Source: an uncultured Bacilli bacterium (GTDB lineage Bacteria > Bacillota_I > Bacilli_A > RF39 > UBA660). Taken from it: a DNA stretch of 40,021 nucleotides. Shown here one piece after another: positions 4,535 to 35,899 of this stretch; the stretch's first letter is position 1; the number at the start of each line of letters is the position of its first letter. Location of the stretch: NCBI GenBank assembly GCA_947632395.1, contig CANRPA010000006.1, forward strand, positions 1 through 40,021. Direction: 5' to 3'. Under the pieces are notes generated by a model that did not search any database, had not been told where the DNA came from, and was given only the letters and a program-made list of their open reading frames with translations. The position numbers and the translations under genes were made by a program.

Positions 4535-4559
4535 GTTAATAAAGACATTATATAAAATA

Positions 4560-4760
4560 AATGATAGAGACGATATAATATAAATTTTAAAGAGAGTCTA
4601 AGTTTGGTGGAATTAGATAAACGAATATTATATGAATCACTCTTGATATTTTTAATGAAAATTAAAACGGTTAATGAACGTTATACATTTAAGAGCATAA
4701 TACTATTATGAAATAGGGTGGTACCGCGTAAATCGTCCCTATATTTATAATAGTTTTTAT
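4560..4760 (+). promoter_or_regulatory. T-box leader of ileS
   Basis: Canonical T-box AGGGTGGTACCGCG at 4714-4727; terminator stem ACTATTATGAAATAGGG...CCCTATATTTATAATAG followed by TTTTT (about 4703-4758); directly upstream of ileS. The specifier codon was not resolved by eye. Confidence 0.92.
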
Positions 4761-4777: not shown

Positions 4778-7700
4778 ATGTGTAGATTTGAAGAATTAAG
4801 TAAAGATAAAAATAGTGAAGTAGAAGCAAAATTAAGTGAGAAGTTTATAAATGAAAATTTACTTGAAAAAACAATAGAAAATAGAAAAAATAGTAAAAAT
4901 TTTGTATTTTATGATGGTCCAGCAACTGCAAATGGTATGCCAGGTATACATCATATGCTTGCTAAACTTTTAAAAGATACAGTTTGCAAATATAAAACTA
5001 TGAAAGGATATAGAGTCCTTAGAAAAGTAGGTTGGGATACACATGGATTACCAGTTGAGGTTCAAGTAGAAAAAGAACTTGGATTTAATGGTAAGGGAGA
5101 TATTGAAAAATACGGTATAAAAGAATTTAATGAAAAATGTAGAGAAAGTGTTTGGAAAAATGAAACTGCATTTAAAGATTTTACAAATAAAATGGGACAA
5201 TTTATAGATTTAAAAAATCCTTATATTACTTACGACAATAATTATATAGAAACAGAATGGTGGATACTTAAGAAATTTTTTGATGCTGGACTTATTTATA
5301 ATGGACTTAAAATACTTCCTTATTGTCCTAGATGTGGTACAGGACTTGCAAGTCATGAAGTTGCTCAAGGATATAAAGAAATAACAGTTAATACTGTAAC
5401 AGTACCATTTAAAGTTAAAAATCAAGATAATACTTATTTACTTATTTGGACAACAACTCCATGGACACTTATGTCAAATGTTGCTGCATGTGTAAACCCA
5501 AATGAAAAGTATGTCAAGTGCTTATCAAAAGGATTAAATTTTATAGTTGCCGAAAAATTATCTCATAAAGTACTTGGAGATGAATTTGAAGTAGTAGAAG
5601 AATACATGGGAAAAGATTTAGAATATTTAGAATATGAACAATATATGGATATTCTTAAAGTAAACAAAAAGGCTTTTTATGTAACATGTGCAGATTATGT
5701 AACAATGGAAGATGGTACAGGTATAGTTCATATCGCACCAGCATTTGGTCAAGATGACTATGAAGTAGGACTTAAATATGATCTTCCAGTATTGAATCCA
5801 GTAGATGAAAATGGTTGTTATACAGATGGACCTTGGAAAGGTAGACTTGTTGTAGATAGCGAATTAGAAATAGAAATAATTAAATATTTAGCAAGCCAAG
5901 ATAAAATATTTAAAAAACAAAAAATGGTTCATAATTACCCACATTGTTGGAGATGTAAAACTCCTTTAGTTTATTATTCAAAACCAAGTTTATATATAAA
6001 GGTAACAGACTTTAAAGAAAAAATAATAGAAGCTAATAAAACAGTTAATTGGTATCCAGATTATGTAGGAGAAAAGAGATTTGGTAATTGGTTAGAAAAT
6101 TTAAATGACTGGGCAATATCTCGTAATAGATATTGGGGAACTCCAATACCTTTATGGGAGTGTGAATGTGGTCATAAAGAAATGATAGGATCAAGAGAAG
6201 AATTAGTAGAAAAATCTATAGAAAAAATTGATAAAACTATTGAACTTCATAGACCATATGTTGATGATGTACACATTAAATGTCCTAAATGTGGTAAACA
6301 AATGTCTAGAATCAAGGAAGTAATGGATTGTTGGTTTGATTCTGGTTCAATGCCATTTGCTCAATATCACTATCCATTTGAAAATAAGGAACTATTTGAA
6401 AGTCAATTTCCAGCCGATTTTATATGTGAAGGTATAGATCAAACAAGAGGATGGTTTTATTCATTACTTGTAATATCAACATTTGTAATGGGTAAAAGTC
6501 CATATAAAAATGTATTAGTTAATGATTTAATAACAGATAAAGATGGTCATAAAATGCATAAAAGTAAAGGTAATGCAGTAGAACCATTTACTAGTATTGA
6601 AAAATATGGTGCAGATCCAATTAGATGGTATATGCTTTATACATCGCCAGTTTGGACACCTCTTAGGTTTGATGAAGAAGGAATAAAGGAAGTACAATCA
6701 AAATTCTTTAATACATTAAAAAGTACATATTCATTCTTTAGTATGTATGCTAATATAGACAAAATAGATCCTAAAAGTTATGAAATAAAGTATGAAGATT
6801 TAGAGGAAATAGATAAATGGTTATTATCTAAATATAATAAATTAGTTAAGAATGTTACAAACAATATGGATAATTATGATTTAACTACAGCAGAACGTGA
6901 AATACAAAATTTTGTAGTAGAAGATTTATCAAATTGGTATATAAGACGTAACAGAAGAAGATTTTGGTCAAGTGAAAATAACATATCTAAACTTGCAGTA
7001 TATAAAGTAACATATGATATATTAGTTGGTGTATGTAAACTTATCGCACCAATGATACCATTTACAAGTGAGGAAATATATACAAAATTAACTAAAGAAG
7101 AATCAGTTCATTTAAGTGATTATCCTACATTTGATGAAAAATTTATAAACGAAAAAATAGAAAACAGAATGGATTTAGTAAGAGATTTAATTAGTCTTGG
7201 TAGAAATATAAGAGAAGAAGTAAAAATAAAAGTTAGACAACCAATTAGTGAAGCACTAATAGATGCTAAAAACGAAAAACTTATTAGTGATTTAACAAAT
7301 TTAATAAAAGAAGAATTAAATGTAAAAGAAGTTAAATTCATTAAAGATGTAGAAAATTATATGAATTTTACAATAAAACCAAACTTTAAAGAAGTAGGAA
7401 AAATATTTGGATCACTTATGAAAGAATTTGGTGATAAACTTTCTAAATTGAATACTACTGATATATTGAAATTAAAAAATGATGAAACAATTAAAATGAC
7501 TATCGGAGATACCGAATATGACATAGATTCAAATATGGTAGATATTAGAATAAGTTCAAAAGAAGGTTTTGACGTTGCAACTAGTTTTTCTAATTTCATA
7601 ATAATAAATACTGAACTTACTGAAGAACTAATTATGGAAGGAATTGCTCGTGAATTAGTATCTAAAGTACAAAATATGAGAAAAACAAAAGATTTTGATA

Positions 7701-7879
7701 TAGCAGATAGAATAACATTATACTATAGTGGTGATGAAGAAGTAATTAAAGCAATAAATAGTTTTGAAGACTTTATTAAAAATGAAACTTTATCAACTAA
7801 TATTGAAATTAAATCTAATTTAAAAGAAGAAGTAGATTTAAATGGACATATGATTTATATAGATGTAGAAAAAAATTAA
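4778..7879 (+). CDS. ileS: Isoleucyl-tRNA synthetase
   Basis: FYDGPATANGMPGIHH (HIGH-class), GWDTHGLPVE, DKDGHKMHKSKGN (KMSKS-like), WLLSKYNK; T-box upstream. Confidence 0.97.
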   Translation: MCRFEELSKDKNSEVEAKLSEKFINENLLEKTIENRKNSKNFVFYDGPATANGMPGIHHMLAKLLKDTVCKYKTMKGYRVLRKVGWDTHGLPVEVQVEKELGFNGKGDIEKYGIKEFNEKCRESVWKNETAFKDFTNKMGQFIDLKNPYITYDNNYIETEWWILKKFFDAGLIYNGLKILPYCPRCGTGLASHEVAQGYKEITVNTVTVPFKVKNQDNTYLLIWTTTPWTLMSNVAACVNPNEKYVKCLSKGLNFIVAEKLSHKVLGDEFEVVEEYMGKDLEYLEYEQYMDILKVNKKAFYVTCADYVTMEDGTGIVHIAPAFGQDDYEVGLKYDLPVLNPVDENGCYTDGPWKGRLVVDSELEIEIIKYLASQDKIFKKQKMVHNYPHCWRCKTPLVYYSKPSLYIKVTDFKEKIIEANKTVNWYPDYVGEKRFGNWLENLNDWAISRNRYWGTPIPLWECECGHKEMIGSREELVEKSIEKIDKTIELHRPYVDDVHIKCPKCGKQMSRIKEVMDCWFDSGSMPFAQYHYPFENKELFESQFPADFICEGIDQTRGWFYSLLVISTFVMGKSPYKNVLVNDLITDKDGHKMHKSKGNAVEPFTSIEKYGADPIRWYMLYTSPVWTPLRFDEEGIKEVQSKFFNTLKSTYSFFSMYANIDKIDPKSYEIKYEDLEEIDKWLLSKYNKLVKNVTNNMDNYDLTTAEREIQNFVVEDLSNWYIRRNRRRFWSSENNISKLAVYKVTYDILVGVCKLIAPMIPFTSEEIYTKLTKEESVHLSDYPTFDEKFINEKIENRMDLVRDLISLGRNIREEVKIKVRQPISEALIDAKNEKLISDLTNLIKEELNVKEVKFIKDVENYMNFTIKPNFKEVGKIFGSLMKEFGDKLSKLNTTDILKLKNDETIKMTIGDTEYDIDSNMVDIRISSKEGFDVATSFSNFIIINTELTEELIMEGIARELVSKVQNMRKTKDFDIADRITLYYSGDEEVIKAINSFEDFIKNETLSTNIEIKSNLKEEVDLNGHMIYIDVEKN

Positions 7880-12827: not shown

Positions 12828-13340
12828 ATGGTAAAATACAAAAAAGATCAAGAATACTTATTAATTATAGATAATATAATGCAAAATAAAAAGTTTAAAG
12901 AAATGCAAAATATAAAGCATCATAACACAAATAGATTAGATCATTCACTTAAAGTTTCGTATTATTCATATAAAATAGCAAAATCATTAAAGTTAGATTA
13001 TAAAGATGTAGCTAGAGGTGGTTTATTACATGATTTTTATACTGAAAAAATAAGTGATTGTGATAAAATAAAAGATAAAATATTATTGTTTTCAACTAAG
13101 CACCCAAATGAAGCAGTAGAAAATTCGTTAGAATATTTTGATTTATCAGAAAAAGAAATAAACATTATAAAAACACATATGTTTCCTATAGATTATAAAG
13201 TTCCAAAATATGCAGAAAGTTGGATAGTAAGTATAGTTGATAAAGTACTTAGTTTAGGCGAGTTTTCTAAAAAAATTAGTCATAAACTAACTTATATGAT
13301 TAATTTATATTTATTATTTGTAGTTAATATAATAAAATAG
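12828..13340 (+). CDS. HD-domain hydrolase
   Basis: RLDHSLKVSYYSYKIAKSLKLDYKDVARGGLLHDFY, with HD (LLHD) motif. Confidence 0.75.
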   Translation: MVKYKKDQEYLLIIDNIMQNKKFKEMQNIKHHNTNRLDHSLKVSYYSYKIAKSLKLDYKDVARGGLLHDFYTEKISDCDKIKDKILLFSTKHPNEAVENSLEYFDLSEKEINIIKTHMFPIDYKVPKYAESWIVSIVDKVLSLGEFSKKISHKLTYMINLYLLFVVNIIK

Positions 13341-13363: not shown

Positions 13364-13440
13364 GTATCCGTAGCTCAGTAGGATAGAGCGATTGCCTCCT
13401 AAGCAATAGGTCGTTGGTTCGATTCCAATCGGGTACACCA
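13364..13440 (+). tRNA. tRNA-Arg (anticodon CCT)
   Basis: Acceptor GTATCCG/CGGGTAC plus ACCA; anticodon arm ATTGC-CTCCTAA-GCAAT; T arm with GGTTCGATTCC. Confidence 0.95.
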
Positions 13441-13486
13441 GATTGATACCAAACTCGGACTATTTATAATTCGAGTATATATAATA

Positions 13487-13516
13487 AAAGACAACTTGCA
13501 AAAAAGTTGTTTTTAT
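13487..13516. terminator. Bidirectional hairpin at the start of repeat unit 1
   Basis: ACAACTT-GCAAAA-AAGTTGT-TTTTA on +; reverse strand reads AACAACTTTTTTGCAAGTTGTCTTTTATT. Confidence 0.6.
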
Positions 13517-13524
13517 GTTATGAT
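13496..13524 (+). promoter_or_regulatory. Sigma-A-type promoter for antisense RNA, copy 1
   Basis: TTGCAA (13496-13501), 17-nt spacer, TATGAT (13519-13524). Confidence 0.65.
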
Positions 13525-13530
13525 GTATTT

Positions 13531-13645
13531 GTCAAGGAAACTTGCATAAAATAAAAAAAGGATACATTTGATTGCAGGAATCAGATGTTATCCCTTATGG
13601 AATGCATCTGAAATCAACTATTGTTGAAATCAGATGCTTTTGCTA
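13531..13645 (+). ncRNA. Candidate antisense antitoxin RNA, copy 1
   Basis: Runs from the promoter at 13496-13524 to terminator hairpin GCATCTGAAATCAAC-TATT-GTTGAAATCAGATGC (13604-13637) plus TTTT; overlaps the 3' end of the convergent small ORF. Confidence 0.55.
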
Positions 13646-13720
13646 TTTTAGAAGTAAAATAATTACGACTAAGAATAGGAGTAATATTGTAATAAATTGA
13701 GAAAATTCTCTTTTTGTCAT
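13643..13720 (-). CDS. Candidate type I toxin-like hydrophobic peptide (25 aa), copy 1
   Basis: MTKREFSQFITILLLFLVVIILLLK; strong GAAAGGCGGTGAT Shine-Dalgarno; promoter on - strand; not in the ORF track because of its size. Confidence 0.6.
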   Translation of the reverse strand: MTKREFSQFITILLLFLVVIILLLK

Positions 13721-13798
13721 AAATATCACCGCCTTTCTTTTATCCTTTGATAAATAGAAAGGGAAAGCATCTGATATATTTCAAATGTATCCATGAAT

Positions 13799-13827
13799 AT
13801 TATATCAAACATTCGTTCTTAATACAA
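13799..13827 (-). promoter_or_regulatory. Sigma-A-type promoter for small ORF copy 1
   Basis: On - strand: TTGTAT (13827-13822), 17-nt spacer, TATAAT (13804-13799). Confidence 0.65.
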
Positions 13828-13844
13828 TAAAAATAATATTTGAT

Positions 13845-14067
13845 ATGAAAAAAAGCATAAAAGTTGAAAAAAACTACATAGTAGATAATTTTTTATCAAA
13901 AGGTTATGCTCAATTTTATGTAGAAAATGAAATAATAAATCTAACTGAAGGAGAAATGTTAGTATACAAAGTATGCATTTAAAGGACATTTTATTTCTAT
14001 TTTGATAGATTGTCCTACCTTTGATTCAGCAGATGATATTATTTATGAGGAACAAATTAAAGAATAA
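13845..14067 (+). pseudogene. Decayed cupin-like protein fragment, copy 1
   Basis: MKKSIKVEKNYIVDNFLSKGYAQFYVENEIINLTEGEMLVYKVCI*, with further fragments FDSADDIIYEEQIKE* downstream in a shifted frame. Confidence 0.5.
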
Positions 14068-14149
14068 GTGCTTTAAAAAATTGTAGTACTTCTTAGATTG
14101 ATACCAAACTCGGACTATTTATAATTCGAGTATGTATAACAAAGACAAC

Positions 14150-14178
14150 TTGCAAAAAAGTTGTTTTTATGTTATGAT
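14150..14178 (+). promoter_or_regulatory. Promoter for antisense RNA, copy 2
   Basis: TTGCAA (14150-14155), 17 nt, TATGAT (14173-14178). Confidence 0.65.
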
Positions 14179-14184
14179 GTATTT

Positions 14185-14298
14185 GTCAAGGAAACTTGCA
14201 TAAAATAAAAAAGGATACATTTGATTGGGATAATCAAATGCAATCCCTTATGGGTTGCATCTGAAATCAACTATTGTTGAAATCAGATGCTTTTGCTA
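14185..14298 (+). ncRNA. Candidate antisense antitoxin RNA, copy 2
   Basis: Same architecture as copy 1; terminator hairpin 14257-14290 plus TTTT. Confidence 0.55.
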
Positions 14299-14373
14299 TT
14301 TTAGAAGTAAAATAATTACGACTAAGAATAGGAGTAATATTGTAATAAATTGAGAAAATTCTCTTTTTGTCAT
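14296..14373 (-). CDS. Candidate type I toxin-like hydrophobic peptide (25 aa), copy 2
   Basis: Identical peptide MTKREFSQFITILLLFLVVIILLLK with identical GGCGGTGAT RBS. Confidence 0.6.
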   Translation of the reverse strand: MTKREFSQFITILLLFLVVIILLLK

Positions 14374-14497
14374 AAATATCACCGCCTTTCTTTTATCCTT
14401 TGATAAATAGAAAGGGAAAGCATCTGATATATTTCAAATGTATCCATGAATATTATATCAAACATTCGTTCTTAATACAATAAAAATAATATTTGAT

Positions 14498-14731
14498 ATG
14501 AAAAAAAAGTATAAAAGTTGAAAAAAACTACATAGTAGATAATTTTTTATCAAAAGGTTATGCTCAATTTCATGTAGAAAATGAAATAATGAATCTAACT
14601 GAAAGAAAAATGTAAGTGATTTCTAAAAATACAAAGTATTCATTTAAAGGACATTTTGATTCCTTTGGGCAGATTGTCCTGCCTTTGATTCAGCAGATGA
14701 TATTATTTATTAGGAACAAATTAAAGACTAA
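14498..14731 (+). pseudogene. Decayed cupin-like protein fragment, copy 2
   Basis: Frameshift after MKKKYKS; downstream frames read VISKNTKYSFKGHFDSFGQIVLP, resembling the cupin C-terminal barrel strand pattern. Confidence 0.5.
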
Positions 14732-14814
14732 GTGCTTTAAAAAATTGTAGTACTTCTTAGATTGATACCAAACTCGGACTATTTATAATTCGGGTATGTA
14801 TAATAAAAGACAAC

Positions 14815-14957
14815 TTGCAAAAAAGTTGTTTTTATGTTATGACACATTTGTCAAGGAAACTTGCATAAAATAAAAAAGGATACATTTGATTGTGTGAATC
14901 AGATGTTATCCCTTATTGGTTGCATCTGAAATCAACTATTGTTGAAACCAGATGTTT
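14815..14957 (+). ncRNA. Orphan third copy of the candidate antitoxin RNA, no toxin ORF
   Basis: TTGCAA (14815-14820), 17 nt, TATGAC (14838-14843; final T changed to C), then conserved RNA body and hairpin 14922-14955; toxin ORF absent. Confidence 0.45.
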
Positions 14958-15082
14958 TTATTATCTAAATAGTAAGCATTATCATTTAATAAAATCACTA
15001 AACAAATAGTTCCTTTATCATTTTCTTGACTTTGATTTATCATCGTCAAATAATTTTTTTGTTATTTTTCTTAACTTATCAA

Positions 15083-16255
15083 CTAAAAATTCATATTCTT
15101 TTGCTTTACTCGTTGTTTAATTACACCATTGCTTAAGTCAAATAAATTGTTATCCCTTACTACCCTTAGCATATTAACAAATTCTGGAAAATCTTGACTA
15201 TCTTTATATATATCTATATCATATCCATACCATATATCAAATGCAGTTTGAGCTCCATTTTTTAACATTTGTTGAACTTTAGAACTTCCAAAGACACAAT
15301 TATTACTTTGATCATTTAAAGAATGATGTAATCCACTATCTTGATATAATTTAGATTGTAAATCAGCTTCAAATTTATCAAGGAAATGAGCAAGTATTGA
15401 CTGATTAGTAATTAAATCATCAAAATCAAACAGCATTTTTATTATTCTTTTTCTGTCACTTAAATTACCAACGGCATTAATCATTGCCTTATGTTCCATT
15501 TTTTTCTTTTCTTCAGGTGTAATTCCATCAAAAGGTGTTATATCTCCAATTAATGTTTCTCCAATTTCATGAATAGCTAAAAGTTTGTTAACTTCATCTA
15601 TTTCAATATTTCTATCAAAATTTAATTTCTCATTATAATCAAATTCTGAATCCATTGCTATTGCCAAAGCAATCGTACCTACAATATGTTCTGATATTCT
15701 TTCTATTCTTTCAGAATTGATATTCCAATGTTTACTGTCCCATCCACTTCTAATTTTATTCTTTAACCTAAAATTAAGATAATAAAACCTAAAAATTTCT
15801 TCATATTTAGAATATTCTTCAGCATTTTTAGGCATAAAAATTTTAACACCTTCTTTTAGTAAATTCGAATATTCCAATGAATTTCCTTGTTCTGAAATTA
15901 ACTTAGTTAAAGAAAAATCTAACATTTTATATTTAAAAATAAGTTTAGATTCTTTAGTTTGTAATAAACGTGTTTCATCTATTTCAGCTTTATATTGTTT
16001 TCCTTTTTTTAAAGAATCTACAAAATTATAATTTGGATTTAATCTTGAAAAATCATCTAATAACATAATTCTCAATAACTTTCCTACGTTATCAGTTTCC
16101 TTAAATTCAGAATCAATCGCTATTGCTAATATCATACTTCCAAAAATATGATCAGCAACACTATAATTATTAATTTTATCTATAATTGTAGTTTTTAATT
16201 TATTTGCTTGCGTATAAAATGTTAATGTATTTTTTATTTCTTCTAATTTTTGCAT
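15083..16255 (-). CDS. Protein with two HD-type (YfbR-like) domains
   Basis: C-terminal half ERIERISEHIVGTIALAIAMDSEFDYNEK...LLAIHEIGETLIGDITPFDG; N-terminal half NNYSVADHIFGSMILAIAIDSEFKETDNVGKLLRIMLLDDFSRL resembles the same domain. Confidence 0.65.
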   Translation of the reverse strand: MQKLEEIKNTLTFYTQANKLKTTIIDKINNYSVADHIFGSMILAIAIDSEFKETDNVGKLLRIMLLDDFSRLNPNYNFVDSLKKGKQYKAEIDETRLLQTKESKLIFKYKMLDFSLTKLISEQGNSLEYSNLLKEGVKIFMPKNAEEYSKYEEIFRFYYLNFRLKNKIRSGWDSKHWNINSERIERISEHIVGTIALAIAMDSEFDYNEKLNFDRNIEIDEVNKLLAIHEIGETLIGDITPFDGITPEEKKKMEHKAMINAVGNLSDRKRIIKMLFDFDDLITNQSILAHFLDKFEADLQSKLYQDSGLHHSLNDQSNNCVFGSSKVQQMLKNGAQTAFDIWYGYDIDIYKDSQDFPEFVNMLRVVRDNNLFDLSNGVIKQRVKQKNMNF

Positions 16256-35779: not shown

Positions 35780-35899
35780 ATTTGTATTTTAGTCGAACTT
35801 TTTAGTTCGCTTTTTTATTGCCGAAAAGTTGCCGAAAAGTTGCCGAATAAATTGATAATTAAAGAAAATAAGTATATAATAATACTAGAGGTGATAACA

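Follow-up and report, generated by a model that had tools for sequence, protein, structure and literature searches.

Tandem candidate type I toxin-antitoxin modules behind a tRNA-Arg gene of an uncultured Bacilli bacterium, and their distribution among its relatives

We analyzed a stretch of 40,021 nucleotides (the window) from contig CANRPA010000006.1 of an uncultured Bacilli bacterium (order RF39; GenBank assembly GCA_947632395.1). Directly behind a tRNA-Arg(CCT) gene, the window contains a tandem array of direct repeats, in which a gene for a small hydrophobic peptide on the − strand faces the gene for an antisense RNA on the + strand. The genetic architecture of these modules is close to certain. 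Judged from the DNA sequence, there is good reason to take them as members of a new, multi-class family of type I toxin-antitoxin systems, and the family is best read as mobile. The evidence consists of coding constraint, promoters, covariation of RNA pairs, a class-specific match between the mRNA leader and 3′ end, tRNA adjacency, distribution and empty sites. An earlier note on this DNA, made without database searches, had already proposed type I modules here. That reading survived the computational tests applied to it, namely coding constraint, convergent promoters, a conserved antisense RNA, class-specific pairing and readier loss of the toxin. The third, antisense-only copy, the wide distribution, the specificity classes, the predicted 5′-3′ panhandle and the systematic placement at tRNA genes go beyond the first reading.

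Structure of the array and of its peptide gene

The tRNA-Arg(CCT) gene (13364..13440, + strand; found by ARAGORN and Rfam RF00005) directly precedes copy 1, which begins at the tRNA 3′ end. The tandem repeats that the earlier note placed beside a tRNA-Arg gene are real. However, there are three copies and not two, with starts at 13440, 14095 and 14759 (spacing of 655 and 664 bp). The first two copies are complete; copy 2 (14095..14754) is 94% identical to copy 1. Copy 3 contains only the + strand RNA and runs to about 14975, and the array end formerly put at 14957 falls within it. The copies differ by 3-9%.

In copy 1, the toxin promoter (TTGTAT-N17-TATAAT; 13799..13827, − strand) precedes a toxin mRNA with predicted ends at 13553..13792 (− strand); its transcription should start at GG, 6-8 nt after TATAAT. 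The mRNA encodes the candidate toxin peptide MTKREFSQFITILLLFLVVIILLLK of 25 amino acids (aa), which is hydrophobic (13643..13720, − strand). The Shine-Dalgarno (SD) site GGCGGTGAT at 13725..13733 (− strand) lies beside a hairpin that is predicted to form with the upstream sequence CCCTTTC. This open reading frame (ORF), its SD site and its promoter are as had been claimed. In copy 2, the peptide gene (14296..14373, − strand) is identical to that of copy 1 at the DNA level. It is accompanied by the SD site GGCGGTGAT at 14378-14386 (− strand) and by a toxin mRNA with predicted ends at 14206..14445 (− strand).

The antisense (antitoxin) RNA of copy 1 has predicted ends at 13531..13642 (+ strand) and a promoter, TTGCAA-N17-TATGAT, at 13496..13524 (+ strand). 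The promoter and the length of about 110 nt (about 112 nt in our analysis) agree with the earlier claim. In contrast, the terminator does not overlap the toxin ORF as had been claimed but adjoins its stop codon; an overlap is found in two other classes of module (see below). The RNA opens with a small hairpin at its 5′ end (CAAGGAAACTTG or GAAGGAAACTTC), which an A-rich linker separates from hairpin 1 (13560-13591, + strand); the terminator hairpin 2 (13604-13637, + strand) comes last. Hairpins 1 and 2 were assigned from the sequence and an RNA model. Both-sided (compensatory) changes occur at each of the six consensus pairs of hairpin 1. When read on the opposite strand, the linker and hairpin 1 form the U-tract and terminator of the toxin mRNA. 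Therefore, the two terminators interlock, and about 85 nt at the mRNA 3′ end would be completely complementary to the antisense RNA. The double role as a U-tract would account for the near-invariance of the linker. The sequence and RNA model place the antisense RNAs of copies 2 and 3 at 14185..14295 and 14850..14960 (both + strand). Copy 3 lacks the toxin ORF, and its antisense −10 element is weakened from TATGAT to TATGAC.

At least five classes of module (A-E), which differ in toxin and RNA sequence, were distinguished; the window copies belong to class A. The 40 distinct DNA versions of the class A peptide gene encode 31 peptides, with third codon positions the most variable. The ratio of nonsynonymous to synonymous substitution rates (dN/dS) in class A was 0.20, versus 0.52 and 1.85 in the shifted frames; the values for classes B, E, D and C were 0.20, 0.18, 0.39 and 0.53, respectively. 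As judged from codon changes, the peptide ORF is under purifying selection. The peptides of all classes are short and strongly hydrophobic and possess a lysine near the N-terminus. Among 135 distinct peptides, the median length was 29 aa and the median peak hydropathy over 17 aa was 3.44. Tandem module clusters at three other loci (L156, L137 and L121) encode a toxin of a more divergent type, MSQNRKFILQIFDYIITILWQVIFILSIIKK (31-33 aa). The antisense-RNA promoters of 212 modules scored 9.4 of 12, compared with 7.3 for shuffled sequences, and the −10 element of the toxin promoter was exactly TATAAT in 102 of 146 cases.

The class A peptide and up to six class representatives were compared with Pfam, NCBIfam, PADLOC and PHROGs, and nothing scored above noise. 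Rfam, at the gathering and E-value thresholds, returned only tRNAs, a T-box and chance hits. Within the module, at E values up to 1, it returned only the tRNA, a sub-threshold HPnc0260 match overlapping the tRNA and a plastid model. Thus, no family in these five libraries covers the module, and the earlier note was right to claim no homology to known modules.

Leader pairing, specificity classes and proposed mechanism

In every class, the 5′ leader of the toxin mRNA is a same-sense copy of hairpin 1 of its own module. Therefore, the leader complements the mRNA's own 3′ terminator. In copy 1, the leader GGATACATTTGAAATATATCAGATGC (13767-13792, − strand) is predicted to pair with the mRNA 3′ end at the hairpin 1 terminator. 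The pairing energy of the leader was −30.8 kcal/mol with its own 3′ terminator and −13.3 kcal/mol with those of other classes (n = 144). When the full mRNAs were folded, the median number of the first 30 leader bases that paired with the 3′ end was 25, and at least 10 did so in 98.6% of cases (n = 144). In contrast, when the leader of another class was swapped in, the median was 3 bases, and at least 10 paired in 38%. Departures of the leader from hairpin 1, counted in 64 distinct arm pairs, comprised 57 G-U-compatible and only 5 incompatible transitions. Such one-directional change would not be expected of an inverted repeat acting purely at the DNA level. In many classes, the SD region is predicted to lie in or beside a local hairpin.

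Each antisense RNA complements the 3′ end of its own mRNA completely and those of same-class mRNAs almost completely. Antisense-mRNA pairing among the three window copies amounted to −107 to −137 kcal/mol, versus about −20 to −58 kcal/mol with other classes. Therefore, copy 3, if transcribed, could help to silence copies 1 and 2. Within one genome, modules of the same class would silence each other, and modules of different classes would not.

We propose the following mechanism. A strong promoter would produce the antisense RNA of about 112 nt, and the convergent promoter would produce an mRNA of about 240 nt for a one-helix membrane peptide. The antisense RNA would bind the mRNA 3′ end, and the duplex would presumably be degraded by RNase III, by analogy with RatA, SR4 and SR5 (PMC8464778). 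In the folding models, pairing of the leader with the mRNA's own 3′ terminator gives a 5′-3′ panhandle, which may be inert, while a local hairpin would cover the SD region. The peptide would be made only after the 3′ end had been trimmed, as in aapA3 (PMC6733600), and the short-lived antisense RNA had disappeared.

Distribution and linkage to tRNA genes

The genome from which the window derives contains diverged modules behind tRNA-Arg(TCT), the transfer-messenger RNA (tmRNA) gene and tRNA-Leu, as well as others elsewhere. Module DNA was matched in the genomes of 28 of 58 relatives. A DNA pattern scan covered 85,488 genomes, and nearly all of the matches listed came from metagenome bins of uncultured Bacilli, "Tenericutes" or similar. 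At least 214 distinct antisense-RNA elements were collected from relatives. A hydrophobic ORF of 21-49 aa with an SD site faces the RNA in 156 of the 199 readable elements, and the promoter and leader are also present in 146 of those 156. The earlier note had suggested a search for the RNA in related genomes. An RNA model built from 34 antisense-RNA elements matched 291 of 386 genomes of the order, in 95 of 119 genera; all of the matches listed were in the family of the window. Many copies were often found per genome, up to at least 14 (the highest count scored). Because the unit recurs in these relatives and genomes with conserved coding sequence and RNA pairs, the array is more than a chance arrangement.

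Across the class, the RNA model matched only four genomes outside the family, one strongly (G564) and three weakly. The strong match (locus L258), from another family, is a complete module with its own peptide, which suggests horizontal transfer. The exact element pattern had no match in 2.9 million viral contigs, and thus there is no sign of phage carriage in that set. Searches of phage DNA, plasmid DNA and plasmid proteins gave only short chance matches to the module.

An antisense RNA without a called intact toxin was found in 43 of 199 elements. Many of the 43 retain frameshifted or truncated ORF remnants, and a few are missed calls (for example, L024 and L041). Conversely, an intact toxin ORF without an antisense RNA was found in one of about 41 full-length loci, in a search that started from toxin sequences. 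The toxin is lost more readily than the antitoxin RNA (Fisher p = 0.002, for two samples found in different ways), and this is the direction expected for a toxin-antitoxin system.

Modules are frequently linked to tRNA genes. Among loci collected irrespective of tRNAs, 32 of 136 modules start 55-133 nt (mostly 76-90 nt) behind the 3′ end of a tRNA or tmRNA, compared with 0.67% of random positions (p about 2e-39). At these sites, the tRNA still has its terminator stem (ACTCG...CGAGT), with a T run that is absent or shorter. Next comes a second hairpin of terminator type, which holds the −35 element of the antisense promoter. In the window, the stem remnant ACTCGGAC...TTCGAGT, without a T run, lies at 13450..13475 (+ strand); it was recognized by comparison with empty sites of sister species, which end in CGAGTTTT, and the stem is conserved at other tRNA-linked modules. 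The second hairpin, GACAACTTGCAAAAAAGTTGTTTTTATG (13488..13515, + strand), includes the −35 element and is conserved, with stem changes, in other copies.

Orthologous tRNA-Arg(CCT) genes of sister species have no module directly behind the tRNA at 12 of the 13 sites examined, and several of these sites still carry CGAGTTTT. At the orthologous site of one genome (G010), there is a toxin-less antisense RNA of another class. The mostly empty sites indicate that modules have repeatedly been gained or lost at sites of this type. No transposase or target-site duplication was noticed at the modules, and no systematic search was made for either. In our model, modules would favor landing immediately behind the terminator stem of a tRNA or tmRNA, with the antisense promoter merged into the terminator hairpin. 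Since the promoter is merged in this way, the supply of antitoxin might depend on an intact tRNA locus. A more far-reaching idea is that the modules are self-spreading addiction cassettes, which land at tRNA/tmRNA terminators, have split into orthogonal classes by compensatory changes of leader, terminator and toxin, and guard the tRNA gene against loss or rival integrations. We put this forward as speculation and consider it doubtful.

Alternative readings, known systems and neighboring features

Several observations weigh against a toxin-antitoxin function or against parts of the proposed mechanism. The dN/dS of class C is only 0.53. One intact class A toxin ORF (L316; G127:C15:3400-4500) stands without an antisense promoter; there, the promoter and hairpin 1 are replaced by unrelated DNA with inverted repeats. 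The predicted accessibility of the SD site is equal in full-length and 3′-trimmed mRNA (0.205 and 0.208, respectively), and folding therefore gives no support to the idea that trimming frees this site. The match between leader and antisense RNA in trans is weakly class-specific (−19.4 versus −14.6), and we rejected this pairing as the carrier of class specificity because it is weak compared with that between the leader and the 3′ end. Furthermore, a panhandle fold would also be expected of an imperfect inverted repeat of whatever origin, although the C-to-U bias runs in one direction and thus points to pairing between RNA strands.

One rival possibility is that the modules are miniature mobile elements, similar to miniature inverted-repeat transposable elements, whose inverted ends only resemble RNA hairpins and which have no gene function. 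The modules are indeed multi-copy, dispersed, bounded by inverted repeats (I4-I7), variable in site and tRNA-linked. However, such an element would not account for an ORF under purifying selection, compensatory pair changes, one-directional and G-U-compatible differences between the inverted arms, or conserved promoters and terminators outside the arms, and we judge it very improbable. A non-toxic membrane protein, which modulates a membrane complex and whose level is set by the antisense RNA, is also unlikely, but less so; conserved transmembrane peptides under antisense control need not be toxic. An addiction module fits better than such a fixed regulator with the many copies per genome, the distinct classes, the presence and absence at the same site between sister species, the patchy spread and the loss of the toxin ORF while the antisense RNA stays. 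It is hardly credible that faulty assembly of a metagenome bin produced the array: the genome is a draft of 78 contigs, but the copies differ from each other, the third is truncated, single modules occur in hundreds of other genomes and tandem modules are present in other assemblies (L165, L172 and L190).

The preferred toxin-antitoxin reading can be compared with known type I systems. General type I features, namely a small hydrophobic transmembrane peptide, an antisense gene overlapping the toxin mRNA and coding constraint, are found at the sequence level. As in txpA/RatA and bsrG/SR4, the genes are convergent, the RNAs overlap at the toxin mRNA 3′ end and the peptide has a single transmembrane segment (PMC8464778). 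In RatA/SR4-type systems, the overlap is about 114-123 nt, RNase III degrades the duplex and BsrE is only 30 aa (PMC8464778). In contrast to that group, the modules match no peptide family and nothing in Rfam, their antisense RNA measures about 112 nt instead of 163-222 nt, and they are linked to tRNAs, whereas the group is known only from prophage-like elements (PMC8464778). The leader that copies its own terminator hairpin and the many classes per genome are further differences. In aapA/IsoA of Helicobacter pylori and in hok/Sok, long-distance 5′-3′ pairing inactivates the full-length mRNA (here predicted) and local hairpins hide the SD site; aapA also has several paralogous modules per genome (PMC6733600). 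However, the leader here pairs with an intrinsic terminator, which is itself hairpin 1 of the antisense RNA, and no toxin family match exists. Thus, the modules resemble txpA/RatA and bsrG/SR4 in their architecture and aapA/hok in the folding of the mRNA, and match neither in sequence.

Fst/par of pAD1 also has convergent RNAs, an SD-hiding 5′ stem and a second region of complementarity near the 5′ end; it uses direct repeats and one shared bidirectional terminator (PMC7472228), whereas two separate, interlocked terminators are found here. No Pfam or NCBIfam model of Fst or Ldr matched the six class representatives. Neither the PXXXG motif nor the charged tail of Fst is present, and the class A peptide contains neither proline nor glycine. 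The type I modules of Clostridioides difficile likewise show convergent overlap, multiple copies and no homology to earlier toxins (PMC6563280). Their toxins are 34-59 aa with charged C-termini, unlike the peptides described here, and they are linked to CRISPR arrays and not to tRNA/tmRNA genes (PMC6563280). In the literature searched, nothing describes the module and no paper mentions both RF39 and toxin-antitoxin systems.

If our reading is correct, this would be among the more widespread type I families, present in about three-quarters of the genomes of one family of uncultured gut bacteria. Current annotation misses it, since none of the libraries searched contains its peptides or its RNAs. 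With so many classes existing side by side, nature provides a series of matched RNA pairs, and insulation between paralogous type I systems is therefore directly testable. The leader-terminator match may help to detect further type I systems by sequence where toxin homology is lacking.

Other features of the window are as follows. Repeat copy 1 contains a decayed ORF (MKKSIKVEKNYIVDNFLSKGYAQFYVENEI...; 13845..14067, + strand), and repeat copy 2 contains a second one (14502-14750, + strand). They are probably a duplicated pseudogene, whose best relative is a weak match in another genome (G015). We rejected this ORF as a third module component because copy 2 carries it in disrupted form and relatives almost entirely lack it. 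Two HD-domain proteins flank the array, one of HDIG type (12828-13340, + strand) and one of HD_3 type (15083-16255, − strand); close relatives of the latter (83-85% identity) are confined to two other species of the genus. A T-box leader (4552-4743) lies directly upstream of a 1033-aa ORF (4778-7879). At 35780-35880, a short direct repeat, GCCGAAAAGTTGCCGAAAAGTTGCCGAA, follows the terminator behind tRNA-Gly.
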